From Synechococcales cyanobacterium S06 (GTDB lineage Bacteria; Cyanobacteriota; Cyanobacteriia; Cyanobacteriales; JAABRE01), in NCBI GenBank assembly GCA_011391125.1, contig JAABRE010000037.1:1-48847 (forward strand): a stretch of 48,847 nucleotides of DNA. The letters are read 5' to 3'. This document shows, one piece after another, positions 22,487 through 42,416 of the stretch. The first letter of the stretch is position 1. Every line of letters starts with the position of its first letter. The position numbers were made by a program, and so were the translations under genes. Below the pieces are notes generated by a model. The model ran no database searches. It saw only the letters and a list, made by a program, of their open reading frames with translations, and was not told where the DNA came from.

Positions 22487-23728
22487 ATGAAAGTTATACT
22501 AAAACCACTTTTAAGTGATCTCCACTTAGATAGTAACCAAACGAATACTCAACGTCAATTATCTATTTCTGTTCAAGCTATTTCTGAATTAGAGGAAAGT
22601 CATTTACCCTTAAATTTGTGTTTAATTTTGGATCATAGTGGTTCAATGCAGGGAAAACCACTAGAAACGGTAAAAAAAGCCGCTATTTCTATCATCGAAA
22701 AATTAAGCTCCCATGACAATCTCTCGATTATTGTTTTTGATCATCGTGCCAAAGTATTATTTCCCAATCAGCTTGTAACGGATAAAATAGATATTATCAA
22801 AAGGTTGCAAATGCTAGAAGCTGATGGAGGTACAGCCATTGACGAAGGGTTAAAGGTGGGAATTCAAGAAATAGCTAAAGGAGCGAAAAATACGGTTAAA
22901 CAAATTTTCCTGTTAACTGACGGAGAAAATGAACACGGAGATAATCAACGATGTTTAAAATTATCCCAACTCGCTTCCGAATATAATATAACTTTAAATA
23001 CCCTAGGTTTTGGCGCTCATTGGAATCAAGATATTTTGGAAAAAATTGCGGATTTAGGAAGTGGTAATTTATCTTATATCGAAAAATCAGAAGATGCATT
23101 GGCTAAATTTAACCAATTATTTGATCGCATCCAATCAGTGGGTTTAACTAATGCCTATTTAAACTTAGAATTAGCGCCACAAGTACGTTTGGCAGAAATA
23201 AAACCGATCGCCCAAGTCGCTCCAGAAACGATAGAATTAAGTTATATTCAAGGGGAAAATGGTTTACAAGTGCGTTTAGGAGACCTAATGAAAGGAACTC
23301 CACGATCAATTTTAGTTAACTTATATATTGGTCAATTAACAATAGGAAATCAAACCATTGCCAAGGTACAAATTAAATATGATAACCCGTCTGAAAATCA
23401 ACAGGGTTTAATTTCCGAGAAAATCCCCGTCAATGTGGAAGTACAACCGCAATATCAGCCGCAACAGGATCAAACGGTACAAAAATCAATTTTAGCCTTA
23501 GCGAAATATCGTCAAACCCAGATTGCCGAGGCCAAATTGGCACAAGGTGACACAAAAAGCGCCGCTACGATGTTACAAACAGCGGCCAAAACGGCTTTAC
23601 AAATGGGAGATACCAGTGGAGCAACGGTCTTACAACATAGTGCTACAGTCTTACAAACACAAGGAGAATTAAGTGAAATCGAGAAAAAACGCACTCGTAT
23701 TGCTTCTAAAACAATTATTTCTAATTAA
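22487..23728 (+). CDS. VWA (von Willebrand factor type A) domain protein
   Basis: A 413-residue protein whose VWA domain spans about 40-225. The MIDAS metal site is complete: DHSGS at 49-53, Thr in DGGTAIDEG, Asp in LLTDGENEHGD. A beta-rich region follows (about 230-325). The C-terminal helices (about 340-413: QIAEAKLAQGDTKSAATMLQ) are typical of bacterial VWA proteins related to YfbK/batA-like and cyanobacterial 'VWA domain-containing protein'. No signal peptide or membrane helix, so it is probably a cytosolic scaffold. It stands alone, 241 bp from the divergent membrane-protein gene; I see nothing recognisable in that AT-rich gap. It is followed by a good hairpin. Confidence 0.85.
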   Translation: MKVILKPLLSDLHLDSNQTNTQRQLSISVQAISELEESHLPLNLCLILDHSGSMQGKPLETVKKAAISIIEKLSSHDNLSIIVFDHRAKVLFPNQLVTDKIDIIKRLQMLEADGGTAIDEGLKVGIQEIAKGAKNTVKQIFLLTDGENEHGDNQRCLKLSQLASEYNITLNTLGFGAHWNQDILEKIADLGSGNLSYIEKSEDALAKFNQLFDRIQSVGLTNAYLNLELAPQVRLAEIKPIAQVAPETIELSYIQGENGLQVRLGDLMKGTPRSILVNLYIGQLTIGNQTIAKVQIKYDNPSENQQGLISEKIPVNVEVQPQYQPQQDQTVQKSILALAKYRQTQIAEAKLAQGDTKSAATMLQTAAKTALQMGDTSGATVLQHSATVLQTQGELSEIEKKRTRIASKTIISN

Positions 23729-26936: not shown

Positions 26937-29900
26937 TTAATTTTGTTGACAATATTTATATTTAAAGTCGGATTCGGGAAAAATGAGCGGGTTTTTGTCT
27001 AATTTCGCTTGTTGCTCTTCGCTTTCAATAATAAGAGGAATCCAGGAACTAATAATATTATCACTACTTAAAAAATCCCCAGGTTGCGCAGCTAAACCAC
27101 CTTTTCCTAAATCATAAAAAGCGATACTACCTTGACCTCCCGTTTGACATCCTTGGGCAATTTCTACTTCTGCTGGTATTTCTGGTAAATTGCTTAATCC
27201 GTCGGTGGGGTCAACATTTAAGCGGGTAATTTGAATAAGTCCTTTTAATCCTAATGCTGAACTAGCCGTTATATCACTTAAAAAAGTTAATTCTTCTCGG
27301 GGTTGAATGCCAAAAATTGATTCGGTGGTAATGAAAATTTGCCCACCTTTACCTGTAAAAGCATTCGCTGTAATGTCATTATCATCTTGATAAAAACTAA
27401 AGATATTACGAGCAGAAATCTCAATATTACCGCCATTTCCTGCTGTTTCTTGATTACCGGCTGTTGTCGAGATTTTACTCCCATTATTTAATGTTAATAA
27501 ATCAGTAACTGTGAGTTTAATATTACCTCCGTTTCCACTGGTGGTTTCTGCGGAAATTTTACCTTTATTTAACCCTAAATCTTCGGTGGAAATAGTAACA
27601 TTTCCTCCCTCTCCTGTTCCCTTGCTATCTACCGCAATAACTCCCTCATTGTTAATAACTAAATTTTGGGTAGTCAGATTAATATTGCCGCTGTTACCTT
27701 GAGAAATTTCCGTTGTATTCGCCAAAATTCCTGTATTTGAGCCTGTTACAAGGGTTTTTTGGGCGATCGCCAAATTAATATCTCCAGCTTGTCCTTCTCC
27801 ATTGGTGTTCGCGGAAATTTGCACGCCATCACTAAGATTTAGGTTTTTGCTAGTAATATTAATCGCTCCAGCGTTACCATTTCCTGATGTTTCGACGGCG
27901 ATTTTTCCTAATCCTTGAATGTCCAAATTTTCTGGCGCAGTAATTGTTATATTCCCACCGTCTCCTGTGGCAGTAGTTGAAGCTGAAATAAAGCCATTTT
28001 TTGTAAAATTAATGTCAAGATTAGGGTTATTTTCTTGGGGATTAATGGTTAAGTTTCCTGCCGGAGTTTGTCCTTGAGTTTCAGCGAAAATACCCAATTT
28101 TCCTGAGATATTTAGATTATTTGCGTTCAGATTAATACTACCTCCTCCCGCTAAATTGGTTGAAGTCGCCGTCGCTGTGGCGCTAAGTTGCGCATTTTCA
28201 CCAATCGTGAGGCGATCGGTGGTAACATTGATGTTTCCGGGCTGTCCGGCGGCGGAGGTTTCCACGGTTAATCGACTATCTTTACCAATGTTAACGAGTT
28301 GAGGAGAGTTAATGGTAATACTACCAGCGTTACCTTCACCCAGGGTAAAAGCTTCCATTCCAGCACCCGAACCAATCTGGAGATTCGGGGTATTGACGTT
28401 AATGTCGCCGGCATTGCCTTTATTGAAAGTAAAAGCTACTATTCCACCTATTGGTCGGGTCAAAAGTCCACCAAAATTATAAGAGAAAGTGCCCGAGATA
28501 GAGACTTTGTCCGTAGCGGTAATATCGATTCCCCCCGCATTGCCAAGATTATGGGTACTAGCAGTAATAAGTGAGCCGTCTTGAAGATTTAAACTAGAAG
28601 TATTAATGACTATCCCCTTACTGTCACCCGTATTGAATGCTTCAGCCGCTATGTGAGTACCTCCACCCCTGAGAGTGATACCATTAGTAGCACTAATGTC
28701 TATCTGCCCTGACTTTCCTGAAGTATTAGTACCCGCAGTAATACGTGCTGCGTCTTGAAGAGTTAAAGTAGAAGTATCAATGACAATATTTCCAGCATCG
28801 GCAACTCCTCCAAACGTTTGAGTATTTATATAAGTGCCATGGCCTAGAGAATTTGCACCTGAGAGAAAAATGCCCTCATGAGCGGTAATCTTGATATCCC
28901 CCGCTCCATCTGCTTGAGAAGTATAGTTACTGGCATCAATAACGCCTCCGTTTTTAAGAGTTAAAGTAGAGGTATCAATCACAATTCCCCCAGCCTTGCC
29001 TACTGCTCCATTCACTACCCGACTTACGATAACACCGTAAGGAACTAGCCCATCGACAATGATACCATCAGAAGCAGCAATCTTGATCTGTCCCGCATTT
29101 CCTTGCCCGGAGGTATTCACCCCAATAACTCCGGCTTTTTCCATAGTTAAAGTAGAGGTATCAATGACTATATCTCCCCCATTTCCCTGACCTTCATACT
29201 CGACATTATTAAAAATAGGACTCTCTTGGATGAGGGTTGCATCAGCTATATTGATTTTTATATCGCCAGATTGGGCAGTGGGGCTACCTAAATCTGAATC
29301 TATACCCGCAATAACTTCGCTAAGTTTTCCTAAAATATTCAGGTTTTGCCCCTCAATGGTAATACTTCCTCCACCTCCGCCAATTGACTTGATTTTGGAA
29401 TTCAAGATATTCACATCCCCTCTGGTCAGATTAGCCGGCAATTGAGGTTCTATGCCATTTGTCAGGGTGAGATTACCGTTGGCTTTTAAACCACCTAGAT
29501 AAATATTGCTCCCAGGGGAAATAATGTTACCACCATCAATGTTTATATTGCCGCCAATTAGGGCGAGGGTTTTCCCCTCAGCTGCTCTTAAAAAGTAGGG
29601 ATTAGGCGCGAGTGCTTTTAAAATTAGGTTATATAATCCACTACTATAAGTACCTGTACTAACCCAACCGTTTAGGGGCGAATTAGCACCGCTTCCTGGT
29701 ACTTCAAATTGACCGTTGGTAAAAATCGGACCCTCAGCACTCAAGGGATTATTATCCCAACTGGAGATTCCTAAATAGTAGATACCAGATTGGTTTACTG
29801 GAGGAACAGTTGATTGTCCTCCTCCCTGACTGTCGTCATTGGCACTAATTCCTAAACCTTGACTATCAAATAAAAATAGCTGGGTGTCAACAGCACTTCC

Positions 29901-31268
29901 ACCTACGGTTGTGGGTTTAATTTCCGTTCCTTCAAGCAGGTAAATTTGATATAAATCGACATCGTTTAGGTCGGATAATTCTCCCAAGATACGATCAGGA
30001 AGTTGGCTATTTTTATCGTTAATTATTTGATAATCATCTAATAGTTGACCCGCATCGCCATTTTCCCGACTTTCATTCAACTTAATTTTCCCGGTTTGTA
30101 CCACAATATCTCCCGCATTTTCCTTAACCTCTAAACCGCTGGGTATATTAATAGTTAATAAGGAGGGAAGATCGGGGTTACTGGCACTAAATTTATAATC
30201 ATTTTCAAACAAAATACTATCAGCAGTGGTGGCTAAAAATGACCCGTTTAAGTCTAATTTTGCCTCCGATCCAAATAGTAAGCTATTAGGATTAAGTAAG
30301 TATAAATTAGCAGTTCCTAATATTCCCAATGTTCCCCTAATTTCCGAAGTATTTGCTCCCGTAACTCGACTAAAAATATTGTCAATTCCGGCAGGATTAG
30401 CAAAGTAAACTCCTCGGCCAGATTCCACATTAAATTCAAGAAAACTATGGAATAAATTAGCTCCTCTTTCTGCTCCCCCAATTACTTTGTCATTATTCGG
30501 GTCAATCGCTTCTATTTCGGTGTTTTCAGCGCCTAATGTGGTATCAGGTTGTAAACGTGGATTAACGGTTTTACTTGTTAAATTTAAGGTCGTTTCTGAG
30601 GGATAAATCTGTATATTTGCCGCCGTTAAATTGCCTTCATTAATAACTTTATTGCCCGCTAAAGTGACATTTTTACTATTAGTAAGAGTTAAATCAGCTT
30701 GATTGGTAATTATGCCCTCACTACCTTCTAATTTAATCCCCATGGGCGCGTTTGTATTAATGGTTAATAACGGGGGAATTTGGGGATTCGTAGCGCTAAA
30801 TTCTGCACCATTTGGTAAGATAAAACCATTACCACTATTTGCTACAAAAGAACCGGTTAAATCTAAGTTGGCATTGGGACCAAATAAAATACCATTGGGA
30901 TTAACAAAATATAAATTAGCGTTACCTAAAACCCCTAAAGTGCCTAAAATTTGAGTAAGATTATCCCCGGTAACTCGACTAAAAATATTAATCACATCCG
31001 TGGGATTAGTAAAATAAACGGCGTTATTATTGTTAACATTAAACTCTAAAAAACTATGAAATAAATTTGTTCCTCTTAATGCTCCTCCTTCGATATTTTG
31101 TAAGTTGTCATTAATTTGTTTAACTACTGAAGTTTCATTTCCCAAGGTTGTATCAGGGGTAATTTGAGCTTGAACTACCTGGGTATTAATACTAAATAAA
31201 ATACTAAAACTAAGCAAGTTTAAGTATTTTTGATGATTTATTTTAAGATTTTGTGAAAGTTTAATCAT
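26937..31268 (-). CDS. FHA-type two-partner-secretion exoprotein with two tandem TPS domains
   Basis: A large secreted adhesin/exoprotein of 1443 residues. Signal peptide at 1-35 (cleavage after VQA). Residues about 36-185: filamentous-hemagglutinin TPS domain (GGALRGTNLFHSF, VNPNGILFGPNA). Residues about 235-375: a second TPS domain (GGAERGANLFHSF, LNPNSLLFGSEA). Residues about 405-550: a PPC-like domain (VDLYQIYLLEGTEI, DTQLFLFDSQG, GIYYLGISSW). About 560-1330: parallel beta-helix repeats rich in G-N-I-x-I-T. C-terminus: CQTGGQGSIAFYDLGKGGLAAQPGD, a conserved cyanobacterial ending. Export by the ShlB/FhaC-type transporter at 40656 is expected. Divergent from the DUF928 gene. Confidence 0.9.
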   Translation of the reverse strand: MIKLSQNLKINHQKYLNLLSFSILFSINTQVVQAQITPDTTLGNETSVVKQINDNLQNIEGGALRGTNLFHSFLEFNVNNNNAVYFTNPTDVINIFSRVTGDNLTQILGTLGVLGNANLYFVNPNGILFGPNANLDLTGSFVANSGNGFILPNGAEFSATNPQIPPLLTINTNAPMGIKLEGSEGIITNQADLTLTNSKNVTLAGNKVINEGNLTAANIQIYPSETTLNLTSKTVNPRLQPDTTLGAENTEIEAIDPNNDKVIGGAERGANLFHSFLEFNVESGRGVYFANPAGIDNIFSRVTGANTSEIRGTLGILGTANLYLLNPNSLLFGSEAKLDLNGSFLATTADSILFENDYKFSASNPDLPSLLTINIPSGLEVKENAGDIVVQTGKIKLNESRENGDAGQLLDDYQIINDKNSQLPDRILGELSDLNDVDLYQIYLLEGTEIKPTTVGGSAVDTQLFLFDSQGLGISANDDSQGGGQSTVPPVNQSGIYYLGISSWDNNPLSAEGPIFTNGQFEVPGSGANSPLNGWVSTGTYSSGLYNLILKALAPNPYFLRAAEGKTLALIGGNINIDGGNIISPGSNIYLGGLKANGNLTLTNGIEPQLPANLTRGDVNILNSKIKSIGGGGGSITIEGQNLNILGKLSEVIAGIDSDLGSPTAQSGDIKINIADATLIQESPIFNNVEYEGQGNGGDIVIDTSTLTMEKAGVIGVNTSGQGNAGQIKIAASDGIIVDGLVPYGVIVSRVVNGAVGKAGGIVIDTSTLTLKNGGVIDASNYTSQADGAGDIKITAHEGIFLSGANSLGHGTYINTQTFGGVADAGNIVIDTSTLTLQDAARITAGTNTSGKSGQIDISATNGITLRGGGTHIAAEAFNTGDSKGIVINTSSLNLQDGSLITASTHNLGNAGGIDITATDKVSISGTFSYNFGGLLTRPIGGIVAFTFNKGNAGDINVNTPNLQIGSGAGMEAFTLGEGNAGSITINSPQLVNIGKDSRLTVETSAAGQPGNINVTTDRLTIGENAQLSATATATSTNLAGGGSINLNANNLNISGKLGIFAETQGQTPAGNLTINPQENNPNLDINFTKNGFISASTTATGDGGNITITAPENLDIQGLGKIAVETSGNGNAGAINITSKNLNLSDGVQISANTNGEGQAGDINLAIAQKTLVTGSNTGILANTTEISQGNSGNINLTTQNLVINNEGVIAVDSKGTGEGGNVTISTEDLGLNKGKISAETTSGNGGNIKLTVTDLLTLNNGSKISTTAGNQETAGNGGNIEISARNIFSFYQDDNDITANAFTGKGGQIFITTESIFGIQPREELTFLSDITASSALGLKGLIQITRLNVDPTDGLSNLPEIPAEVEIAQGCQTGGQGSIAFYDLGKGGLAAQPGDFLSSDNIISSWIPLIIESEEQQAKLDKNPLIFPESDFKYKYCQQN

Positions 31269-31323
31269 GATTATATTTGGAGAATTAAATTGGATATTTT
31301 TACTATAATTTTGAAGATGGTTT

Positions 31324-31366
31324 GTTGTTGCGCTTTAGCGCACTCTTAGCGCTAAAGCGCAACAAC
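31324..31366. repeat. Perfect 18-bp hairpin in the FHA/DUF928 divergent promoter region
   Basis: GTTGTTGCGCTTTAGCGC (31324-31341), seven-base loop ACTCTTA, exact inverse at 31349-31366. Related to the REP-like repeat at 8697-8746. It sits centrally in the 220-bp gap between two divergent starts, so it may affect either gene as a terminator or binding site. Confidence 0.75.
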
Positions 31367-31488
31367 GAGCCTTTTACATTTATACAATTAATCCCAATTA
31401 TTAGCTAATTTTGGCTAATTTATTAAATAATTTTCCCATAAATGTTATAAAATTTAACTATTATTTTTTTAATAAACCTAATTTTATT

Positions 31489-32283
31489 ATGTCTATTAAA
31501 CTTCAATTAATTAAGTTTATACCCTTGTGTTTAATTACTTTGTTATATAACCAATTAGCTGTTAATGCTCAGTTGTCAAATACAGAATCGGTCTCGTCAA
31601 ATTCCAGTAAACCGAATACTCAACCTAAATTACCAACACCTCCCCCAAGAGGTACTCCTACTGGAAATAAGACCCCCGGAGCTACTCGTAATGACCAAAT
31701 TTGGTGCAAAGAGACAAGTCAACCTTTGACTGCTTTAGTTGCTAACAATGGTAAGGATTTTACCCTCTCTGATTATCCTACTTTTTGGTTTTATATTCCC
31801 TATCAATCTGAAGATATTAAATATCTGGAATTTGCCCTTAAAGATGGACAAAATTCGACGACAATTTATCGCACTGCTATTAAATTGGAAGCTAATTCTG
31901 GGATTATTAATGTTACTATTCCTGACGAAAAAAAATATGCTTTAGAAGTAGGAAAAAATTATAGTTGGAACTTACTTTTATCTTGTCAAGGTAACGAAAC
32001 TTATGAAGCTGATCTTGTGGTTAATGGTTGGATTCAAAAATTAGCAATTACTCCGGAATTACCAGATCAATTAACTCAATTATCTGAACAAGAACTTAAG
32101 CAATTTTATTTAGATAAGAATCTTTGGTCTGATGCTATTAATAAAGTCGCCCAACAATATTATAATAATCCTAATGATGAGCAAATAAAAGCAGATTGGT
32201 TTCGGGTTTTAGAAATTATAAATCAGTCAGTTTTGAGTCAAAAAGATTTAGTTGGTTCAGTTTTATTGTCCCCTGATTTATAA
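31489..32283 (+). CDS. DUF928 family secreted protein
   Basis: A 264-residue exported protein of the cyanobacterial DUF928 family. Signal peptide at about 1-28 (MSIKLQLIKFIPLCLITLL, cleavage near VNAQ), a Pro/Gly-rich linker (PTPPPRGTPTGNKTPGATR), then the core: TALVANNGKDFTLSDYPTFW, FALKDGQNSTTIYRTAIKL, SWNLLLSC, DLVVNGWIQKL. ATG 31489 was chosen over 31411 because it begins the hydrophobic signal sequence. The family has no known activity, but in cyanobacteria it commonly lies beside FHA/TPS and CHAT genes. Likely periplasmic and part of the TPS island. Confidence 0.82.
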   Translation: MSIKLQLIKFIPLCLITLLYNQLAVNAQLSNTESVSSNSSKPNTQPKLPTPPPRGTPTGNKTPGATRNDQIWCKETSQPLTALVANNGKDFTLSDYPTFWFYIPYQSEDIKYLEFALKDGQNSTTIYRTAIKLEANSGIINVTIPDEKKYALEVGKNYSWNLLLSCQGNETYEADLVVNGWIQKLAITPELPDQLTQLSEQELKQFYLDKNLWSDAINKVAQQYYNNPNDEQIKADWFRVLEIINQSVLSQKDLVGSVLLSPDL

Positions 32284-32375
32284 TAGACATCTGGTAAAAA
32301 TTAAAGATGCTTCGTCTGAATCCCTTGTAGAGACGTAGCATGCTACGTCTCTACATTACATGGGGTTGATGTCTA
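32284..32375. repeat. 92-bp MITE-like element containing a 30-bp perfect palindrome
   Basis: Ends TAGACATC (32284-32291) and GATGTCTA (32368-32375) are exact inverses. Centred inside is an uninterrupted palindrome at 32326-32355, whose half is TGTAGAGACGTAGCA. It lies 1 bp after the DUF928 stop and just before the sigma-like gene, so it may also act as terminator. Confidence 0.7.
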
Positions 32376-32406
32376 ATAGATTTTATAATTTATAACCGAT
32401 TTTTTA

Positions 32407-33618
32407 ATGATGCTTTCTCGTGAGACAATAAACGAAGTATTTTCGACTTTTATTCAATTTTCTGATGATAATTTTAGTAACTGGTTAACTGAACCACGAC
32501 TAAAAAGAAATATGGAATTTCATAAGAAAAAAGAGTCTGAAAATCAGAAATCAGAACGTTTTTGGAGTTTATTTTGGTATCAAAAATGGCGGGATCAAAC
32601 TGATATTTTAGCTAAAAATCATTTGTTAGCTTATTTACAGGAATCTTGTTATTGGACTTCTCAAAAAACTGTGAGTCTGTTCCCTAATTTACCATATAAA
32701 TTATCCGATTGTTTTCAAATGGCGATCGCCGAAATTGATCAAGTTTTACAAAATTATAATCCTAATTATGGTTTCTCTTTATCTAATTATGCCAGTTTAG
32801 TATTTAAAAGTATTATTAATAATACGGTTAGGCAAAAATTAGAAATTGATATTTGTACAGATTGGGGTTTGTTACGCAAAGTTAGTAAAAAACGTTTAAT
32901 TGCTAGTTTAGAAAATGCCAATTATGCTCCAGAAAAGATAACTTATTATTGTTTAATTTGGACTTGTTTTAAAAATATTTATATTCCTAAACAACAGAAA
33001 TTAACTCAAAAATTATCAGTACCCAGTGAAGCTATTTTACAAAAAATAATTGTAGCTTATCAAACCGAACTTATTAATTATCCTAGTTTATCACAAAAAG
33101 AAGCACATCAACTTACACCAAAAATTGTCAAAAAATCTTTACAAGAATGTGCTAATTTAATTCGTCAATATTTATATCCTCAAACTATTTCTTTAAATAT
33201 TACCCCAATGGGACAAGATTCAGGAGAATTATTAGAACTTATTAATAATCAGGAAAAATCTCCTCTTGAATACCTTATTAGGGAAGAAGAAATAAGTTTA
33301 AGGGAAGAAAAAAAAGCTCAAATAAATAAGATATTACTTGAATCTCTTAATAAAATTAATCCGGAAGTACAAACTCTTTTTAAAATGTATTATCAAGAAA
33401 ATTTAACTCAAGAAAAAATAGCTGAAAAATTAGATACTAAACAATATAATATCTCTCGAAGAATTGCGAAAGGACGAGAAATATTACTTAGAGATTTATT
33501 AATCTGGACTAAAAATAGTTTCAATCTAACTATTAATACGGAAATAATTAAAGAAATGAGTGTGGTTTTAGAGGAATGGTTAAATATATATTATCAAAAT
33601 ATAGCACTTTCCGATTAA
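32407..33618 (+). CDS. Divergent sigma-70-like RNA polymerase factor
   Basis: A 403-residue basic protein. The clear part is C-terminal: ESLNKINPEVQTLFKMYYQE followed by LTQEKIAEKLDTKQYNISRRI at about 320-365, a region-4-like helix-turn-helix for -35 binding. Upstream, about 100-300 is a degenerate helical region that could correspond to sigma regions 2-3 (FSLSNYASLVFKSIINNTVRQ). Proteins of this kind are annotated as sigma-70 family in cyanobacteria, next to DUF1822 and CHAT genes; whether they direct transcription is unproven. The last residues and stop codon (positions 33600-33619) lie in a MITE end that recurs at 42742-42761, so the natural C-terminus may be altered. Confidence 0.68.
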   Translation: MMLSRETINEVFSTFIQFSDDNFSNWLTEPRLKRNMEFHKKKESENQKSERFWSLFWYQKWRDQTDILAKNHLLAYLQESCYWTSQKTVSLFPNLPYKLSDCFQMAIAEIDQVLQNYNPNYGFSLSNYASLVFKSIINNTVRQKLEIDICTDWGLLRKVSKKRLIASLENANYAPEKITYYCLIWTCFKNIYIPKQQKLTQKLSVPSEAILQKIIVAYQTELINYPSLSQKEAHQLTPKIVKKSLQECANLIRQYLYPQTISLNITPMGQDSGELLELINNQEKSPLEYLIREEEISLREEKKAQINKILLESLNKINPEVQTLFKMYYQENLTQEKIAEKLDTKQYNISRRIAKGREILLRDLLIWTKNSFNLTINTEIIKEMSVVLEEWLNIYYQNIALSD

Positions 33619-33647
33619 ATGTTATCTACCCCTCACCCCCCTACCCA
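33600..33647. repeat. MITE end overlapping the sigma-like gene 3' end
   Basis: TATAGCACTTTCCGATTAAA at 33600-33619 matches the inverse of 42742-42761 at 19 of 20 positions. Similarity continues through the C-rich stretch CTACCCCTCACCCCCCTACC. The stop codon of the sigma-like gene is inside it. No second end is seen nearby; the sequence runs into another repeat at 33666. Confidence 0.7.
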
Positions 33648-33665
33648 CCACCAACCAAAGCAGGG

Positions 33666-33838
33666 CTGTTTCAAAGTCGAGATCAAAATTTGAAGACCCT
33701 CACCCCCAACCCCTCATCCCAAAGGGAGAGGGGAGCATATTTACTAATATTTAAAACCTGTTTTTTAAGTATTAGGAAAAAGGTATTTAAACTAATAGTA
33801 GGCAAGGGTTTCAAAAATAGCAATTTTTACTTTGAAAC
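33666..33838. repeat. 173-bp MITE, copy A
   Basis: Bounded by GTTTCAAAGT and ACTTTGAAAC (10-bp terminal inverted repeats). Repeated at 35171-35343 with only about five mismatches, and as a partial copy at 48576-48638. With the preceding MITE end it fills the gap 33619-34013, where no gene is credible. Confidence 0.88.
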
Positions 33839-34013
33839 GGTTTCCCTGCTCATCCCAAAGGGAGAGGGGGAAAAAAGAGGCAAAATGTCAAAGAAACGAT
33901 ACAATTCACTAAACATCAATACACCTAATTAAATGTTTTATTCTGCAAATGCATAAATTAAAAAAAACAAATCTATCTAAAAATATGAACAAGATTTAAA
34001 AGGAGAAAAACCA

Positions 34014-35138
34014 ATGTCATTATTATTTGCACAACCAACTCAATTATATTTGGACATCCAATCATATAATCAACACAAATACTGGCAAGAAAGTCAAGAA
34101 ATGACTCATTCTGTGTGGAAATATTATCTTAATCGTCTGTTTCTGGATAGTTTTTTGATATATTTAAAAGACGAATATTCTCGACAACCTCAAATCTGGA
34201 AAAATGATAAACTTGAACAAATTTGGGCATTGGTAGATGGTACAGCCATTATTATTAATAATAAGCGATTTGTTTTATTAGCCACAGAAATAATAGATGA
34301 TGATGAAGTTACTATTCCCCAAGAATGGATTGATATTCCTAGTTGGGTAGCAGATTATTATTTAATAGCACAAATTAATCCTGATCAGCAATGGATTCGA
34401 GTTAAAGGTTATACAACTCATGGGAAAATTAAAACTCAAGGAACTTATAATGAACAGGAAAGATTATATCATTTAGATGGAGATAAAATAAGCGAAGATT
34501 TAAGTATTTTATGGTTATCACAAGAATTTTGTCCTGAAGAAATTACCAGAACAGAAGTTCAGTCTTTACCGAATTTAGCAGTAAAACAAGCGGAAAATTT
34601 GATTATAGATTTAGCAAATTTAGAGCTTATTTCTCCTCGTTTAACAATACCTTTTAGTTTATGGGGTGCTTTATTAGAAAATAATGATTGGCGAAATCAA
34701 TTATTTCAATTACGTGAAGGATTAACAATTAAATTAAGCGATTGGTTTAATAATTTATTTGATAATTTTTGGGAAACACCAGAAAATTTGAATTTACAAT
34801 TTAGTGTTTCAAGAAATGTAACTGAATCGACGATTAAACGAGCTAAATTAATTAATTTAGGTGATGAAACTGTTATTTTAGTTTTTGAAATTAGTCAGGA
34901 AAAGTCCTCAAAATTTAGTGTTAGTATTCACTTATATCCTTGCCAAAAGAATCGTTATTTACCTCCCAATGTTAGCCTTACTTTATTAACTCTTTCTGAG
35001 CGGATTTTAAAATCAATTCAAGCAGAAAACCAAGACAATTATATTGCGATTAATAAGTTTAAGGCTCCGACTCAGTTTATTTTTAAGGTAAAAATACAGC
35101 TGGAATCTTTAACTAAGACAGAGCAATTTATGCTTTAA
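34014..35138 (+). CDS. DUF1822 family protein
   Basis: A 374-residue cytosolic protein of the cyanobacterial DUF1822 family. Recognisable segments: SVWKYYLNRLFLDSFLIYLK near the start, WALVDGTAIIINNKRFVLLA, and PSWVADYYLIAQINPDQQW, a beta-rich region that is the family hallmark. The C-terminal half (LVFEISQEKSSKFSVSIHLY) is also beta-rich. AGGAG lies 10-14 bases before the ATG. DUF1822 genes typically stand between a sigma-like gene and a CHAT gene in cyanobacteria, as here. No enzymatic motif is visible and the function is unknown. It is framed by two nearly identical MITE copies in the same orientation. Confidence 0.85.
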   Translation: MSLLFAQPTQLYLDIQSYNQHKYWQESQEMTHSVWKYYLNRLFLDSFLIYLKDEYSRQPQIWKNDKLEQIWALVDGTAIIINNKRFVLLATEIIDDDEVTIPQEWIDIPSWVADYYLIAQINPDQQWIRVKGYTTHGKIKTQGTYNEQERLYHLDGDKISEDLSILWLSQEFCPEEITRTEVQSLPNLAVKQAENLIIDLANLELISPRLTIPFSLWGALLENNDWRNQLFQLREGLTIKLSDWFNNLFDNFWETPENLNLQFSVSRNVTESTIKRAKLINLGDETVILVFEISQEKSSKFSVSIHLYPCQKNRYLPPNVSLTLLTLSERILKSIQAENQDNYIAINKFKAPTQFIFKVKIQLESLTKTEQFML

Positions 35139-35170
35139 ATATTATACACCCCCTCTCTTTAGTAGGGAAA

Positions 35171-35343
35171 CTGTTTCAAAGTCGAGATCAAAATTTGAAG
35201 ACCCTCACCCCCAACCCCTCATCCCAAAGGGAGAGGGGAGCATATTTCCTAATATTTAAAACCTGTTTTTTAAGTATTAGGAAAAAGGTATTTAAACTCA
35301 TATTAGGCAAGGCTTTCAAAAATAGCAATTTTTACTTTGAAAC
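35171..35343. repeat. 173-bp MITE, copy B
   Basis: Direct-orientation copy of 33666-33838, offset 1505 bp, with the same GTTTCAAAGT / ACTTTGAAAC ends. It occupies most of the 274-bp gap before the CHAT-CHASE2 gene. Open frames crossing it are repeat-derived. Confidence 0.88.
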
Positions 35344-35412
35344 CGCCCTGCTCTCCCTAGGGGTGAGGGAGAAAAGAGGTGCAAAATTTTTAATAAAAAT
35401 ATAGGGTTAACA

Positions 35413-37752
35413 ATGCTTTTAATACTTTTTAAATTAGGAACAGGAAATTTCCAGAGCGGTTTTTCTGAATTGAAACTTCAGTTATGGGAAAAAAATATCT
35501 CAATTCCCATACAATTAGGAGCTAATTTATCGGCCAATTTAAAATTAAGTGAACTTTATCAACGTTGGCAAAATTTATATCGGGCAATTTCTAAAATTAA
35601 CATTAATCGTAACCATAATTTTGACATTGAATTTGATGAAGATGATATTACCAAAGTATCCGATCAAGAATTTCAACAAATATCTGAACAGTTAAAATAT
35701 GAGTTAAATTTGTGGTTAAATTCTCCTGTTTTTGCTTCTTTGGAAGCTAAATTACGCTCTTTTCTTAATCTTACTGATGAAATTCGTTTTGTCATTGAAA
35801 CTGAAGCAGAAGAATTACGTCGTTTTCCTTGGCATTTATGGGATTTTTTTGATGATTATCAGGGAGCCGAAATTGCTTTAAGTCCTTCTGAATATGGCCG
35901 AATTAATACCATTAGTAAACATAGTAATAAGGTGAGAATTTTAGCCATTTTAGGGAATAGTAACGGTATTAATCTTGAGGAGGATAAATTATTTTTAAAT
36001 ACGTTACCCGATACAGAACTTATTTTTTTAATTGAACCTTCTCGTAGTCAATTAAATGAGTTTTTATGGGATGAAAATGGCTGGGATATTCTCTTTTTTG
36101 CTGGCCATAGTTGGAGTGAAAATAATTCTCAAACTGGTTATTTGGCAATTAATTCCCAAGATAATCTTACTATTCCTCAGTTAAAAAATGCCTTAAAAAA
36201 TGCCATTAATAATGGTTTAAAGTTAGCGATTTTTAATTGTTGCGATGGTTTAGGTTTAGCTAAACAATTAGCATCTTTACATATTCCGCAAATGATTGTG
36301 ATGCGATTTGATGTGCCTGATTTAGTCGCCCAGAAATTTTTAAAACACTTTTTACAAGGTTTTAGTAATGGTAAATCTTTTTATCTAGCTGTTAGGGAAG
36401 CTAGGGAAAAATTACAAGGATTAGAAGATCAGTTTCCCTGTGCTAGTTGGTTGCCTGTTATTTCTCAAAATCCGACACAAATTCCGCCTAATTGGACAAG
36501 TTTAACTCATAAATTCTCGAAAAAACCTTCTCAATACTTGAAATTAAGTAGGGTATTAACTATTAGTTTAATTATTAGTTTATTAGTAATGGGAATCCGT
36601 TGGTTAGGCTTTTTTCAAAGTTTAGAGTTAACAACTTTCGATTATTTTATGGGTCATAAACCGACTCAATCTGCTGATTCTCGTTTATTAATTATTGGTG
36701 CAGATGAAGATGATATTAATATTAATAATTATGGTTATCCTTTACCAGATCAAGTTTTATTACAGCTTTTACAACAATTACAATCTTATCAACCAAGGGC
36801 GATCGCCATTGATATTTTTCGAGATCAACCTACTGGTTTTAATAATAGTAAAGATTATCAAAAATTAACCGCATATTTAAAAGAAAATCCCAATATTATC
36901 ACTGTTTGTAATCTGGGCAATAAGCTTAATCAAAGTGTCGCTCCACCTCAAAATCTTCCCAGAGAACAAATAGGTTACGCTGATTTATATGATGATTCTG
37001 CTTTAAATAATAATCAAGATGACACCATTCGCCGTTATTTATTAACCCATAATGCTGATACTTTAACAACTCCTTCTCGTTGTCAAACGGATTATTCTTT
37101 AGCTTGGCATTTGGCTTATAAATATTTAATCAATCAAGGAATAAATGTCGAAACAGTAGGAGATAATTGGCAATTTGGCGCCGTAATTTTTAAACCTTTA
37201 GAAAAGAGAAGTGGTGGTTATCAAAAATTAGATGCTGGAGGTAATCAATTATTAATTAATTATCGTAATACCTCTCAAATTTCTCAACAGTTAACCATCA
37301 AAAATGTGTTAGAAGAAAAACTGTTTTTTAATCCGAATTTGGTCAAAGATAAAATAGTTTTGATTGGTATTACTGCTGATAGTGTGCCGGATTTACATGA
37401 TACACCTTTGGGCGAAATTCGAGGTATTTATATTCACGCTCAAGTTGTCAGTCAAATTCTTGATGCTGTGGAAACCCAAGGGAAAAATCTGCTCTGGTGG
37501 TTTCCCCAATGGGGTGATTTATTATTTATTAGTTTTTGGGGGCTGACTGGCGGATTAATTCAGGGCAATTTTCAGCGACGAATCTATCAATTTGGGGCCG
37601 TTAGTTTAGCGGTTTTAATATTATTTGGTGGCAGTTGGTGGAGTTTTACTCAAGAGTTATGGTTGCCATTAATTCCCGCTAATTCGGCGTTATTATGTTC
37701 TGTTATTTTAGTGGAAATGAAAAAAAATATTATTTATTTGCCTAAAGAATAA
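35413..37752 (+). CDS. CHAT-CHASE2 membrane protein
   Basis: A 779-residue protein joining a caspase-like peptidase to an extracytoplasmic sensor. About 1-150: helical region. About 170-355: CHAT domain with catalytic-type His232 in FFAGHSW and Cys276/277 in FNCCDGLGLA. About 378-398: a membrane helix (LTISLIISLLVMGIRWLGFF). About 400-695: CHASE2 domain (ELTTFDYFMGHKP, LLIIGADEDDININNYGYPL, DKIVLIGITADSVPDLHDTP, GIYIHAQVVSQIL). About 700-775: further membrane helices. Topology suggests a periplasmic CHASE2 sensor controlling a cytosolic CHAT peptidase. Next to DUF1822 and sigma-like genes on the same strand, it probably forms one operon with them. Confidence 0.9.
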   Translation: MLLILFKLGTGNFQSGFSELKLQLWEKNISIPIQLGANLSANLKLSELYQRWQNLYRAISKININRNHNFDIEFDEDDITKVSDQEFQQISEQLKYELNLWLNSPVFASLEAKLRSFLNLTDEIRFVIETEAEELRRFPWHLWDFFDDYQGAEIALSPSEYGRINTISKHSNKVRILAILGNSNGINLEEDKLFLNTLPDTELIFLIEPSRSQLNEFLWDENGWDILFFAGHSWSENNSQTGYLAINSQDNLTIPQLKNALKNAINNGLKLAIFNCCDGLGLAKQLASLHIPQMIVMRFDVPDLVAQKFLKHFLQGFSNGKSFYLAVREAREKLQGLEDQFPCASWLPVISQNPTQIPPNWTSLTHKFSKKPSQYLKLSRVLTISLIISLLVMGIRWLGFFQSLELTTFDYFMGHKPTQSADSRLLIIGADEDDININNYGYPLPDQVLLQLLQQLQSYQPRAIAIDIFRDQPTGFNNSKDYQKLTAYLKENPNIITVCNLGNKLNQSVAPPQNLPREQIGYADLYDDSALNNNQDDTIRRYLLTHNADTLTTPSRCQTDYSLAWHLAYKYLINQGINVETVGDNWQFGAVIFKPLEKRSGGYQKLDAGGNQLLINYRNTSQISQQLTIKNVLEEKLFFNPNLVKDKIVLIGITADSVPDLHDTPLGEIRGIYIHAQVVSQILDAVETQGKNLLWWFPQWGDLLFISFWGLTGGLIQGNFQRRIYQFGAVSLAVLILFGGSWWSFTQELWLPLIPANSALLCSVILVEMKKNIIYLPKE

Positions 37753-37815
37753 TCGGTTCATAATTAAATTTTTCAGCTTTGTACCTCACTCAAAAAAGGT
37801 CTTATTTTCCCTGAT

Positions 37816-40608
37816 TTACTGCCAATTACCCACTAAAACATAAGCTCCCCAATCATAAGGTTCATTTTGATATTTTTCCCCATTAATCTCTTTATAAATA
37901 AGGGCTTTTTGTGCTTGATGTAATGCTTCAGCTTTGCTTAAACCTCGATTCAAATTTTCATAAAATTGGCTAATTAAAGGGAGAGTATATTCATCACTAA
38001 CTCGCCATAAACTAGCCAATGTGCTTTGTGCTCCTGCTCTAATTGCTAAACCTGCTAATCCTAAAGTAGCACGATTATCCCCTGATGCTGTTTGACAAGC
38101 ACTTAAAATTAATAGATCGATCGCCTTATTTTTTCCCTCATTTCTTGACCTTAATAAATTATTAATATCATTCTGTCTTAATAACTTTCCATAAGCTAAT
38201 AAATAGGTTTGTTGGGGATCTGAACTGAAATTTCCATGGGTTGCTAAGTGTAAAATTGAATAATCTCCTTGGGTTAATTTTTGCTGCAATGATTCTTGCG
38301 TAAACTGTTCATTGATAAGAGTTTCCGTGGTTGCTAATTGTTTAATTTCATCTAATTCAGCTTCCGTATTAAGGGAGGAAAATTTTATTTCTTCTACTTC
38401 TAAAGCTTTACTAATAGCTGCTCCTAAGACTTTTACTTGTTGAAAAGAATCCTGTAAATTTAATAATTGAGAAGTAGGTAAAAGGGCTAAAGCATAATTT
38501 TTTTCTACTAAATATTCTTGGTTTTCACTATCATATAAAACTGCCATTGGGACATTACGCAATACTCCATCTAAAACAAATATTAAACTATCTATTTCTG
38601 AAGATTTTTCTAAAGAATTTATCACCGGTTGAATTAGCCATTGATATATTTTAGTGGAGTTTTCTCGTAATATTTCAGGATTACGTCTGGCGATCGCCTT
38701 TCTTAATTTTTCTACGGTTTCTTCCACCTCAATTCGACTTACTTGATTAACTTGATATTGTAAAGGTTGATTGGGTAATTTATAAATCACATCCAAACTA
38801 TTTTCTAACATTATAGGATAAATAAAAACAGCAGTACCTAACTGATTAAAAGTTTCGGAATTACTGGTTAATGTACCTAAATCACAATTCAAGAAATTTT
38901 CCAATTCTGCTAACTGTAAAGAATCAATTAAATTAACTGCTGATTCCAAGGTTTCTTGACTAGGAATATCACCTTCAGCAGTTAAAAGTAACTTAACTAA
39001 TTGACGATAAACTGGTTCGACATTATCACGAAAAGAAAACTGTACATCCGCAGTAATTCCTAATAAATCACTGCGGACTTTTTGCAGGGATTTAACAGCA
39101 TTTTGATAGGAAGATATGGCCTCAAAATTTCGGTTTTTACGAGCATAAATTCTACCTAATTGCCATTGCCACTGATAAGCTATACTAGGAAAATTACTAG
39201 GTTGTGCAGCTAATAAAGCTTGCTCTGTAAAGTTTTGAGCCTTTATTAATAATTTAGAATTATCAGGATTATCTAAACTTAAATACTCATAAAAACTCCC
39301 CAGATTACCATTAGCATAAGATAAGGAACGCTGATCTTGTAAATTTTCGGCTTCTCTTTTTATTTGAAGTAGAATTTTCTCAATTTCAGCTTGTTGATTC
39401 ACGTCTGAATTATTGGTTAAGGCTAATTTATTTTGAGATTTTAAGGCGAAAAAACTGGGATTTTTACTATTAATATTAGTAGCAATTTTTTCGGTTTCTA
39501 AACAAGATAAATGTCTAGCAAAATTAAGTTTTGCATAAATATTAGCTTGACTGGGAACTAATTTAGTTAAGTCGATGGTTGAGAATATTTGTTCTGCTTC
39601 CTTGAGTTTAGCTGATTCAACCAATAAATTAAATAAATTTATTTTTGCTTTTAAAATGTCAGTTGATTCTGCATTAAGATTAATAACTTCTTGATAACTA
39701 TTTTCCGCTTTTTGATAATAGTTTTGAGCGGAATTTGTTCCCGAATTAATTTGACATTCCCAAGGTAATTTCTCATAAGAATGAGAAATCGACGAGCGAT
39801 TAGCTTCTATTTTACCTAAAGACCAGTAAGTATTTCCTAAACTTAATAAACTGGAATTTATCTCTTTTTTAGAGTTAATTTGTTTAGCTAATTCTAAGCT
39901 TTTTTGTAATAATTTTTCCGACTCATTTGACTTTCCGATCGCTGGCAATACTTCTGCTAAACTTTGTAATCCTTGAATTTGAATTGGTAAAGAATTTTGA
40001 GCTAAATCTTCTTGAATTTGCCTTACTAGATTAGTAGATTGTTCATAATTTCCTAATATTTGTAAAGCTTTGACTCGATTAATTTTATTACTAATAACCC
40101 CTTGATTATTATTTAATATTTGAAAGATATCTTCCGCTTTTTGCCAATTTTCTAAAGCTAAATATGTCTCTCCTTTTTGAAATAATAAACGGCCATAAAT
40201 ATTTAAAGTAGAAGCAATAATATTTTGTTCTTGTTTCGTAAAATTAGTAATCTTAGTTTCAGGATTATAAGCTAATAAAGCTAAACTTTTGGCGATCGCA
40301 TCTTCAGCTTTTTCCCAGTTTCCTAACTGTTGATAACCTAAAGATAAATTACTTAAAATAATTGCTTGTTTAAGTTTATCTTTTTGCTCATCAAAAATAA
40401 CAAGTGCTTGTTCTAAATCAGTAATTGAAGCCTGAAATTGACCTAAATCATAGTATTTTTTACCACTTTCAACTAATTCATTAGCTCCATTTTGTACTGA
40501 TTGAACTGATTGATTTTGAGTATTAACAGCTAAGACAGAAGTCTCAACAACTAAAATACCGATACAAAAAAAAATTAATAAACGCCAATATCTTTTAAAT
40601 AAGTTCAT
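37816..40608 (-). CDS. TPR-CHAT protein, secreted or membrane-anchored
   Basis: A 930-residue protein. Residues 1-27 are a signal peptide or anchor (LLIFFCIGILVVETSVLAV). About 40-520 contains many TPR units (ELVESGKKYYDLGQFQASIT, LSNLSLGYQQLGNWEKAEDA). The C-terminal CHAT domain (about 630-930) has the His motif DYSILHLATHGNF and the Cys motif LLILSACQTASGD followed by GLAGLAIRAGAQSTLASLWRV, the classic pattern of active CHAT peptidases. It is divergent from the TPS transporter gene with 47 bp between starts. This pairing is common in cyanobacterial FHA loci. It may process or regulate the exported protein, or act in a cell-death or conflict response. Substrate unknown. Confidence 0.9.
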   Translation of the reverse strand: MNLFKRYWRLLIFFCIGILVVETSVLAVNTQNQSVQSVQNGANELVESGKKYYDLGQFQASITDLEQALVIFDEQKDKLKQAIILSNLSLGYQQLGNWEKAEDAIAKSLALLAYNPETKITNFTKQEQNIIASTLNIYGRLLFQKGETYLALENWQKAEDIFQILNNNQGVISNKINRVKALQILGNYEQSTNLVRQIQEDLAQNSLPIQIQGLQSLAEVLPAIGKSNESEKLLQKSLELAKQINSKKEINSSLLSLGNTYWSLGKIEANRSSISHSYEKLPWECQINSGTNSAQNYYQKAENSYQEVINLNAESTDILKAKINLFNLLVESAKLKEAEQIFSTIDLTKLVPSQANIYAKLNFARHLSCLETEKIATNINSKNPSFFALKSQNKLALTNNSDVNQQAEIEKILLQIKREAENLQDQRSLSYANGNLGSFYEYLSLDNPDNSKLLIKAQNFTEQALLAAQPSNFPSIAYQWQWQLGRIYARKNRNFEAISSYQNAVKSLQKVRSDLLGITADVQFSFRDNVEPVYRQLVKLLLTAEGDIPSQETLESAVNLIDSLQLAELENFLNCDLGTLTSNSETFNQLGTAVFIYPIMLENSLDVIYKLPNQPLQYQVNQVSRIEVEETVEKLRKAIARRNPEILRENSTKIYQWLIQPVINSLEKSSEIDSLIFVLDGVLRNVPMAVLYDSENQEYLVEKNYALALLPTSQLLNLQDSFQQVKVLGAAISKALEVEEIKFSSLNTEAELDEIKQLATTETLINEQFTQESLQQKLTQGDYSILHLATHGNFSSDPQQTYLLAYGKLLRQNDINNLLRSRNEGKNKAIDLLILSACQTASGDNRATLGLAGLAIRAGAQSTLASLWRVSDEYTLPLISQFYENLNRGLSKAEALHQAQKALIYKEINGEKYQNEPYDWGAYVLVGNWQ

Positions 40609-40655
40609 AGATTAAAGTACAATTATAAAGTTTATATTCAGATCATTTTTATCTT

Positions 40656-42416
40656 ATGTTTAAATTTAGTATATGTCAGTTTAGCGGACTTTTGATAATT
40701 TCTTTGAGCAATATTTTCATCGCTACCCCAACCTTAGCACAAAGGGAATTAGAACCTACAAATATTAATCCCTTACAAGATTTAATACCCCCTCAACAAC
40801 CACCAAGCTTACCAGAGCAACCATTACCAACACCTAATGAAGAAATATTACTAACTCCTCCATCTGTGAATCCCATTCCCGAAATTCCCGAAACCACAAA
40901 AACTATTACCGTCACTGAATTTGAGTTTACAGGAAATACAGTTTTTTCTACTGCTGAATTAGAAAGTCAAGTAACTGCTAATTTAACAAATAAACCGCTT
41001 AATTTAACCCAATTATTGCAAGTTTCTAATGATATTGCTAAATTATATTCCGAAGCAGGATACACCACATCAGGAGCCGTAATTTCTATTCCTGAAATCA
41101 CTCAAAATGAAGGCCAAGGAATAGTCAGAATCGAAGTAATAGAAGGTACATTAGCAGAAATAAATGTTACCCCCATAAATGAATCAGAAAGATTAAAACC
41201 CAACTATATTCGATCTCGAATTGCGGTAAGAGTTGGTAAACCACTTAATATTATTAAACTCCAAGAAGCCTTACAATTATTACAATTAGAACCAATTATA
41301 AAAGTTGTTTCTGCTCAATTAATAGATGGAACTAAACCAGGTACAAGTATTCTTAATGTCCAATATGCTACAGATAAAACTTTTAAATTAGAGGCCTTAT
41401 TAGATAATTATAAATCCCCAAGTGTAGGCACTTTTAGCCGTGGTTTAGCAATAGAAGAAAGTAATTTTTTAGGATTAGCTGATACAATTAGAGCCGAATA
41501 TTATAATACTGATGGCAGTAATAATTTTGAAACATCTTATTCAATTCCCTTTAATCCTTACAACGGTAATGTTAAATTTAGTTTTCGTACAATTAACAGT
41601 AAAGTTATTACCCCAGAATTTGAACAATTTAATATTAAATCAGATTATCAACAATACAAATTAACGATACGTCAACCAATTTATCAAACTCCAGAAACCG
41701 AAATTAGTTTAGGTCTAACATTTGATCGACAAGAAAATAGTGGGTCAATTGATGGGCAAAAATTTCCCTTATCTCCAGGAGCAAATCTACAAGGAAATAC
41801 CGAAATCTCAACCGTAAGATTTTTTCAAGAATGGTTAAAACGTAACGACAAAGAAATAATTGCAGCTAGTTCTTCTTTTAATTTTGGAATTAATGCTTTT
41901 GGTGTGACAGAAGCTTTTGATAAAACAGTTAATTCCCATGCTCCTAATAGTAATTATTTTATGTGGCAAGGACAAGTTCAATATGTGCATTTATTCGCTC
42001 CAGATACTTTGATTTTAGCCAGAGCTAATCTTCAATTAAGTGATCAGACAATGCTACCTTTAGAGAAATTTGTATTAGGTGGTTTTGGGACAATTAGAGG
42101 TTATTCTCAAAATTATCGTTTAACAGATAACGGTCTAATTGTTACAGTTGAAGGACGTTTACCAATATTGAGAAACCCTCAAAAGGACATGGTTTTACAA
42201 TTAATTCCTTTTCTCGATTTTGGCACTGGTTGGAATAATAGTACACCGGTTTTAACACCGAATACTTTAGCTTCCATCGGCCTTGGATTATCCTTTAAAT
42301 ATAGTGATATTATCAATATTCGTTTAGATTATGGTATTCCTTTAACTGAAGTTAAAGATAGTGGTAATACTTGGCAAGAAAATGGACTTACTTTTTCCGT
42401 CGTTATTACTCCTTGA
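40656..42416 (+). CDS. ShlB/FhaC/HecB-type two-partner-secretion outer-membrane transporter
   Basis: TpsB of 586 residues that exports a TpsA protein through the outer membrane. Signal peptide at 1-28 (IFIATPTLAQ), a proline-rich linker at about 40-80, a POTRA_2 domain at about 85-160 (VTEFEFTGNTVFSTAELESQ, SEAGYTTSGAVISIPEIT), a second POTRA-like part, then a 16-strand barrel from about 245. Barrel signatures: FVLGGFGTIRGYSQNYR (the VRGY-type loop that plugs the pore), and the ending IRLDYGIPLTEV. The final residue series ends FSVVITP rather than the usual Phe. The likely cargo is the FHA-type protein at 26937, 9 kb away on the other strand. Confidence 0.92.
   Translation: MFKFSICQFSGLLIISLSNIFIATPTLAQRELEPTNINPLQDLIPPQQPPSLPEQPLPTPNEEILLTPPSVNPIPEIPETTKTITVTEFEFTGNTVFSTAELESQVTANLTNKPLNLTQLLQVSNDIAKLYSEAGYTTSGAVISIPEITQNEGQGIVRIEVIEGTLAEINVTPINESERLKPNYIRSRIAVRVGKPLNIIKLQEALQLLQLEPIIKVVSAQLIDGTKPGTSILNVQYATDKTFKLEALLDNYKSPSVGTFSRGLAIEESNFLGLADTIRAEYYNTDGSNNFETSYSIPFNPYNGNVKFSFRTINSKVITPEFEQFNIKSDYQQYKLTIRQPIYQTPETEISLGLTFDRQENSGSIDGQKFPLSPGANLQGNTEISTVRFFQEWLKRNDKEIIAASSSFNFGINAFGVTEAFDKTVNSHAPNSNYFMWQGQVQYVHLFAPDTLILARANLQLSDQTMLPLEKFVLGGFGTIRGYSQNYRLTDNGLIVTVEGRLPILRNPQKDMVLQLIPFLDFGTGWNNSTPVLTPNTLASIGLGLSFKYSDIINIRLDYGIPLTEVKDSGNTWQENGLTFSVVITP

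Follow-up and report, generated by a model that had tools for sequence, protein, structure and literature searches.

Gene neighborhoods that combine an ECF sigma factor and a DUF1822 protein with EACC2-caspase-X proteins have been described by Kaur et al. (2021; PMC8195603). The latter consist of a constant N-terminal alpha+beta region and a caspase-like domain, followed by a variable C-terminal sensor X, with CHASE2 among the alternatives. Control of an ECF sigma factor by a CHAT protease is known from Craspase, the type III-E CASP system (Csx29, Csx30, and CASP-sigma), in which the TPR-CHAT protein Csx29 cleaves Csx30 and thereby relieves the inhibition of the sigma factor (Strecker et al. 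2022; PMC10028731). The transmembrane protein DdvA, itself an anti-sigma factor by its PDB title (8rot and 8rw5), likewise combines a CHAT-like fold with a role in sigma control, and HetF is a cyanobacterial protein that contains CHAT. Export by two-partner secretion is represented by the pairs FhaB/FhaC and ShlA/ShlB. In addition, a survey of WD40 proteins recorded, in Nostoc, a CHASE2 gene in the vicinity of one for DUF928; the DUF928 protein sll1891 of Synechocystis is cited there as responsive to acid stress (PMC5587647).

The analysis concerns one island of a 4.8-Mb cyanobacterial genome; all relatives with a name belong to the cyanobacteria as well. The window, a stretch of 48,847 nucleotides, carries seven contiguous genes at positions 26937 to 42416, flanked by clpC on the left and by rimI-lysA-dacA-uppS on the right. 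An ORF check reproduced the coordinates of all seven, the family assignments were confirmed, and the island is free of unrelated genes, as the preliminary description had it. Its features are as follows.

26937 to 31268, minus strand: TPS exoprotein (TpsA-like) with signal peptide and two tandem TPS/FHA N-terminal domains (PF05860, 242.6 bits in two stretches; TIGR01901, 132.5 bits)
31312 to 31378, no strand: palindromic repeat located between the divergent TPS and DUF928 genes (inverted repeat I5, arms of 30 nt, 83% complementary)
31489 to 32283, plus strand: exported DUF928 protein (PF06051, 162.8 bits) with a hydrophobic N terminus ending in AVNA
32407 to 33618, plus strand: ECF/sigma-70-like factor (TIGR02937, 81.8 bits, residues 73 to 362; PF08281, residues 309 to 358; profile matches to sigma chains)
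33666 to 33838, no strand: dispersed 173-bp repeat, copy 1, between the sigma and DUF1822 genes, 98% identical to 35171 to 35343
34014 to 35138, plus strand: DUF1822 protein (PF08852, 254.7 bits), proposed anti-sigma or adaptor substrate
35171 to 35343, no strand: dispersed 173-bp repeat, copy 2, between the DUF1822 and CHAT-CHASE2 genes, 98% identical to copy 1
35413 to 37752, plus strand: CHAT-CHASE2 membrane protein (PF12770, 55.4 bits; PF05226, 204.3 bits), with a predicted N-terminal alpha+beta region and CHAT (His232, Cys277), then transmembrane segment and CHASE2
37816 to 40608, minus strand: TPR-CHAT protein with signal peptide and His791/Cys838 (PF12770, 187.6 bits; TPR matches)
40656 to 42416, plus strand: TpsB outer membrane transporter with POTRA and ShlB barrel (ShlB/FhaC PF03865, 98.6 bits; PF08479, 50 bits)

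The most likely start of the DUF928 gene is the ATG at 31489 and not the TTG at 31411 assigned earlier, and this choice restores its signal peptide. The two copies of the 173-bp repeat widen the gaps on either side of the DUF1822 gene; in most relatives, there is almost no space between these genes, or they overlap. An ORF of 118 aa at positions 33576 to 33932 overlaps this repeat and was judged spurious. The 47-bp divergent gap proposed as a shared promoter of the TPR-CHAT and TpsB genes is present (40609 to 40655) but is not conserved, since related loci with an adjacent TpsB gene, L146, L171, and L177 among them, carry the TPS, TpsB, and TPR-CHAT genes on one strand. No known structured RNA was found in the island, and a scan of 18 proteins encoded within it or next to it detected no cas gene.

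The core of the island has two features of the EACC2-caspase systems: a protein with a caspase-like domain and a variable C-terminal sensor is encoded next to an ECF sigma factor and DUF1822. In the CHAT-CHASE2 protein, residues 2 to 117 are predicted to form three strands followed by three helices, in a model with a pLDDT of 53.9. Given the poor quality of the whole model, only its CHAT part was used for VIA comparison. It adopts a caspase fold, with Z scores of 16.3 to SAVED-CHAT, 13.6 to DdvA over 165 residues, 11.8 to metacaspase, and 11.2 to Csx29. Classification as HetF was rejected at 15.5 bits against a cutoff of 1200. What sets the island apart from the neighborhoods of Kaur et al. 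are DUF928, two-partner secretion, and the exported TPR-CHAT protein, which are not mentioned there. Their account also calls DUF1822 a TPR protein, whereas Pfam finds no TPR in the DUF1822 protein of the island, and its model (below) is of the alpha/beta and beta-sandwich type.

Both CHAT domains are predicted cysteine peptidases, judged by their sequences. The His and Cys residues reported previously are intact in all aligned relatives that cover both positions, namely, in 54/54 for H232/C277 of the CHAT-CHASE2 protein and in 30/30 for H791/C838 of TPR-CHAT, which rules out degenerate active sites in the orthologues. Hydropathy places transmembrane segments at residues 377 to 395 and 727 to 767 of the CHAT-CHASE2 protein, on either side of CHASE2. 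Because one segment precedes CHASE2 and others follow it, the N-terminal CHAT domain is most likely cytosolic, alongside the sigma factor and DUF1822. N-terminal export signals are present in DUF928, TPR-CHAT, and TpsB; the TPS protein has a leader of the TPS type at its start. The earlier distinction between one CHAT protein in the membrane with CHASE2 and another that is exported or anchored agrees with the domain matches, the transmembrane segments, and the signal peptide of TPR-CHAT. The CHASE2-linked CHAT would most likely act in the cytosol and the TPR-linked CHAT after export, in separate compartments. They are therefore unlikely to share substrates, in contrast to the initial description, which treats them together.

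To test whether the genes cluster more often than by chance, CHAT-CHASE2 was used as an anchor. One high-scoring match was taken from each of 40 genomes representing 14 families, up to 20 kb around each was fetched, and profiles made from the proteins of the island were used to look for neighbors. As controls, we used 40 stretches of 20 kb chosen arbitrarily in eight complete genomes, of which seven also belong to the 40-genome sample. DUF1822 was found at 35/40 anchored loci and at none of the control regions. One-sided Fisher tests, whose P values overstate independence because related genomes recur among the 40, gave 6e-16 for DUF928 (33/40 versus 0/40), 2e-7 for TPR-CHAT (23/40 versus 2/40), 0.03 for TpsB (5/40 versus 0/40), 0.01 for the modest excess of TPS (12/40 versus 3/40), and 5e-4 for the full set of DUF1822, DUF928, TPR-CHAT, and TPS or TpsB (10/40 versus 0/40). 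When loci were read against family labels, linkage to DUF928 was seen in 11 of 14 families and the full set in approximately 6. The loci most similar to the island were L146, L171, L177, L144, L145, L137, and L110. Chance clustering is ruled out by the control regions, and the linkage that the preliminary description proposed to check by neighborhood statistics is conserved. Because the gene set recurs in many cyanobacteria, it looks like a real, if still putative, surface-signaling system. TPS genes are common, with up to 44 per genome. At some loci, RTX proteins or type I exporters (C39-ABC/HlyD) are encoded instead, so that the theme of exported proteins is kept.

The sigma factor of the island exceeds the TIGR02937 cutoff of 42.9 bits, its regions 2 and 4 are separated by a long insert, and it contains no membrane segment. 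For 95 of 101 DUF1822 genes, the next gene upstream on the same strand encodes a sigma factor, and the two frequently overlap or are separated by just a few bases. Among these 95 are 71 long forms similar to that of the island and 24 short ECF-like forms; 5 of 9 short upstream ORFs that were scanned match sigma models directly, the others being assigned by profile. A sigma gene immediately upstream of its partner on the same strand is the typical layout of sigma/anti-sigma pairs, and the adjacency in 95/101 cases gives sigma-DUF1822 the same appearance. On this basis we propose DUF1822 as a putative anti-sigma factor. No sigma-DUF1822 fusion was found among the 101 cases. The predicted DUF1822 model, of good confidence (pLDDT of 84.7), comprises an N-terminal alpha/beta part and a C-terminal beta-sandwich, and the protein lacks a membrane segment. 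Foldseek returned no PDB match at an E value of <1e-3. The best VIA Z score was 7.6 for the C-terminal beta-sandwich, and the N-terminal part reached 6.9 to Holliday-junction resolvases, each within a range of common arrangements. A likeness to the anti-sigma sensor RsgI4 (Z score of 6.8) falls on the same beta-sandwich and was not counted as evidence. No relation to the Csx30 chain was detected by sequence, nor to a known anti-sigma fold by structure. A two-box word search of the seven upstream regions of the island, which has low power, found no shared promoter motif above shuffled sequences, and the conservation in alignments of Nostoc upstream regions was explained by relatedness alone.

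The connection between CHAT and two-partner secretion is more direct elsewhere. The same genome contains two single reading frames of approximately 1,620 aa with a TPS secretion domain at the start and a complete CHAT domain at the end; one of them has a VWA domain in between and TpsB next door. In ten further genomes, all 22 of the listed homologous CHAT matches share frame length, contig, and strand with a nearby TPS domain, which indicates that TPS-CHAT fusions are widespread. No other observation argues as strongly that the exported TPR-CHAT of the island may work together with its TPS exoprotein. As in FhaB/FhaC and ShlA/ShlB, the island encodes a TPS domain exoprotein and a POTRA-barrel TpsB, but here TPS is linked to a CHAT peptidase domain and at other loci it is fused to one. 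The sensory part also appears to be changeable. Relatives of CHAT-CHASE2 carry STAND-WD40 or NB-ARC in place of CHASE2. The genome also has a second sigma-DUF1822 pair, which adjoins a CHAT-ANF_receptor gene, and another TPS gene, which adjoins genes for a CHASE2-cyclase and DUF928. These swaps suggest an exchange of sensors and outputs around DUF928, TPS, and CHASE2, which tend to be kept as a group.

We tentatively read the island as a two-compartment, protease-gated sigma factor system for the cell surface, an explanation that we hold to be quite possible although somewhat short of probable. The periplasmic CHASE2 domain of the inner membrane protein would sense a putative signal, probably with exported DUF928 as a partner, and would activate the cytosolic CHAT peptidase in the N-terminal part of the same protein. 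This peptidase would cleave cytosolic DUF1822, which would otherwise hold the ECF-type sigma factor. Once released, the sigma factor would turn on a presumed regulon that encodes exported proteins. The second CHAT protein would work outside the cytoplasm, with the TPS exoprotein exported by TpsB either as its candidate substrate or as its partner. Cleavage of DUF1822 to free the sigma factor is suggested by the gene layout, the compartments, and the active sites, not by homology between DUF1822 and Csx30. As in Craspase, a CHAT protease, a protein with a proposed inhibitor role, and an ECF sigma factor are encoded together. However, the island has no CRISPR effector or RNA trigger, its sensor is a membrane CHASE2 domain, and no relation between DUF1822 and Csx30 is detectable. 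It may work like Craspase but is not a member of that family, because the CRISPR parts are absent. It also differs from DdvA, by its PDB title a transmembrane anti-sigma factor, in that CHAT-CHASE2 and DUF1822 are separate proteins. Of the surface-contact or envelope-stress sensing system suggested at the outset, the conserved gene set and the intact CHAT sites are supported. So is its surface or envelope theme, given the exported TPS, DUF928, and TPR-CHAT proteins and the RTX or type I export genes near some loci. A joint action of the two CHAT proteins, which most likely lie in separate compartments, is improbable.

The order of events in the cytoplasm could be different. In EACC2-type self-processing, CHAT would cut itself or the sigma factor, DUF1822 would be a scaffold rather than an anti-sigma factor, and the outcome would be conflict or stress signaling as outlined by Kaur et al., who propose autopeptidase activation coupled to an ECF sigma factor (PMC8195603). 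The occurrence of sigma-DUF1822 pairs beside CHAT-STAND-WD40 proteins, which are typical of conflict systems, agrees with this. We nevertheless consider it unlikely: DUF1822 follows the sigma gene as anti-sigma partners do, the characterized CHAT-sigma system hits the inhibitor and not the sigma factor (PMC10028731), and the absence of a PADLOC match beyond a generic TPR model speaks against a conflict role and led us to reject a defense system label. It is similarly doubtful that the secreted proteins are the input, with exported TPS and TPR-CHAT reporting surface contact or processing to CHASE2, directly or via DUF928, and the sigma factor controlling unrelated genes elsewhere. The TPS-DUF928 arrangement beside CHASE2-cyclase, a different output, would fit such a role. 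So would the behavior of DUF928 at 66 loci anchored on sigma-DUF1822, where it accompanies CHAT-CHASE2 in 15/15 cases and is found in 0/51 without it, a pattern that we also count in favor of the main reading. Yet a physical link of TPS, DUF928, and CHASE2 is an assumption, and TPS is absent from the fetched stretch at 28/40 CHAT-CHASE2 loci.

The same 66 loci show that TPS is not an obligate output, because many sigma-DUF1822 pairs have no TPS, DUF928, or CHAT-CHASE2 gene nearby, and CHAT-CHASE2 is missing at 51 of these loci. One could go further and regard sigma-DUF1822-CHAT-CHASE2-DUF928 as the whole system and assign TPS, TpsB, and TPR-CHAT to a separate, independent module for secretion that frequently ends up in the same variable region. 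A TPS-TpsB-TPR-CHAT group without the sigma module does exist in this genome (L236), and gene order differs strongly between genomes. The excess of TPR-CHAT over the control regions within the same 20 kb and the recurrence of the full set across families make such independence rather improbable. Even under our preferred two-compartment reading, a stronger statement calls for caution. That caspase-like proteases on both sides of the inner membrane serve one widespread surface-signaling pathway of cyanobacteria, one with a membrane sensor freeing an ECF sigma factor by cutting DUF1822 and a secreted one linked or fused to TPS, is conceivable but for now unlikely.

The whole combination had been presented as undescribed. 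This does not hold for the core of sigma factor, DUF1822, and CHAT-CHASE2, which is known (PMC8195603). What is new is the linkage of this core to DUF928, TPS/TpsB, and the exported TPR-CHAT, together with the TPS-CHAT fusions in single secreted proteins. Our literature search, largely of papers accessible without subscription, found no report of CHAT with CHASE2 or of CHAT with two-partner secretion in cyanobacteria, and no description of TPS-CHAT fusions.

The demonstrated control of an ECF sigma factor by a CHAT protease comes from a rare CRISPR system. If our reading is true, cyanobacteria would commonly use the same logic in a chromosomal signaling device, with several copies per genome and interchangeable sensors. 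DUF1822 and DUF928 would gain testable functions, and caspase-like proteases would be displayed at the cell surface on two-partner secretion proteins. Such a system would bear on the long-standing question of what roles bacterial caspase homologues play outside cell death.

Two copies of a dispersed 173-bp repeat, 98% identical to each other, flank the DUF1822 gene of the island, one inserted on each side, and the 118-aa ORF at window position 33576 is spurious because the repeat lies there. The divergent gap between the TPS exoprotein and DUF928 genes holds a palindromic repeat, and a further palindrome was noticed upstream of the sigma gene. Two coding sequences lie just outside the island.

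Window 16177-21861, TPR-glycosyltransferase protein, 1,894 aa
Window 22487-23728, VWA protein
Window 31312-31378, palindromic repeat (GTTGTTGCGCTTTAGCGC...)
Window 33666-33838 and 35171-35343, 173-bp repeat copies

Elsewhere in the same genome, related components were found in other arrangements.

L234:3859-8742 (contig C101), TPS-CHAT fusion
L235:6198-11054 (contig C137), TPS-CHAT fusion
L237:6882-12239 (contig C168), second sigma-DUF1822 pair with adjoining CHAT protein
L238:4900-10480 (contig C78), adjoining TPS exoprotein, CHASE2-adenylate/guanylate cyclase and DUF928

Both fusions are single proteins carrying the TPS secretion domain at the N-terminus and an intact CHAT domain at the C-terminus, and all homologous CHAT matches listed (22 of 22, in ten genomes besides this one) were TPS-CHAT fusions. 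One of the two fusions in this genome also includes a VWA domain, as does the protein at window 22487-23728.

The CHAT protein at L237 ends in a C-terminal sensor of the periplasmic-binding/ANF_receptor type. Sigma-DUF1822 loci at L104, L110 and L135, and at L084, L086, L088-L090, L093 and L094, have as neighbours either RTX proteins of the calcium-binding type or genes for export by C39-ABC and HlyD. The exported partners at L238 are those of the island, but cyclic-nucleotide output replaces CHAT-sigma.
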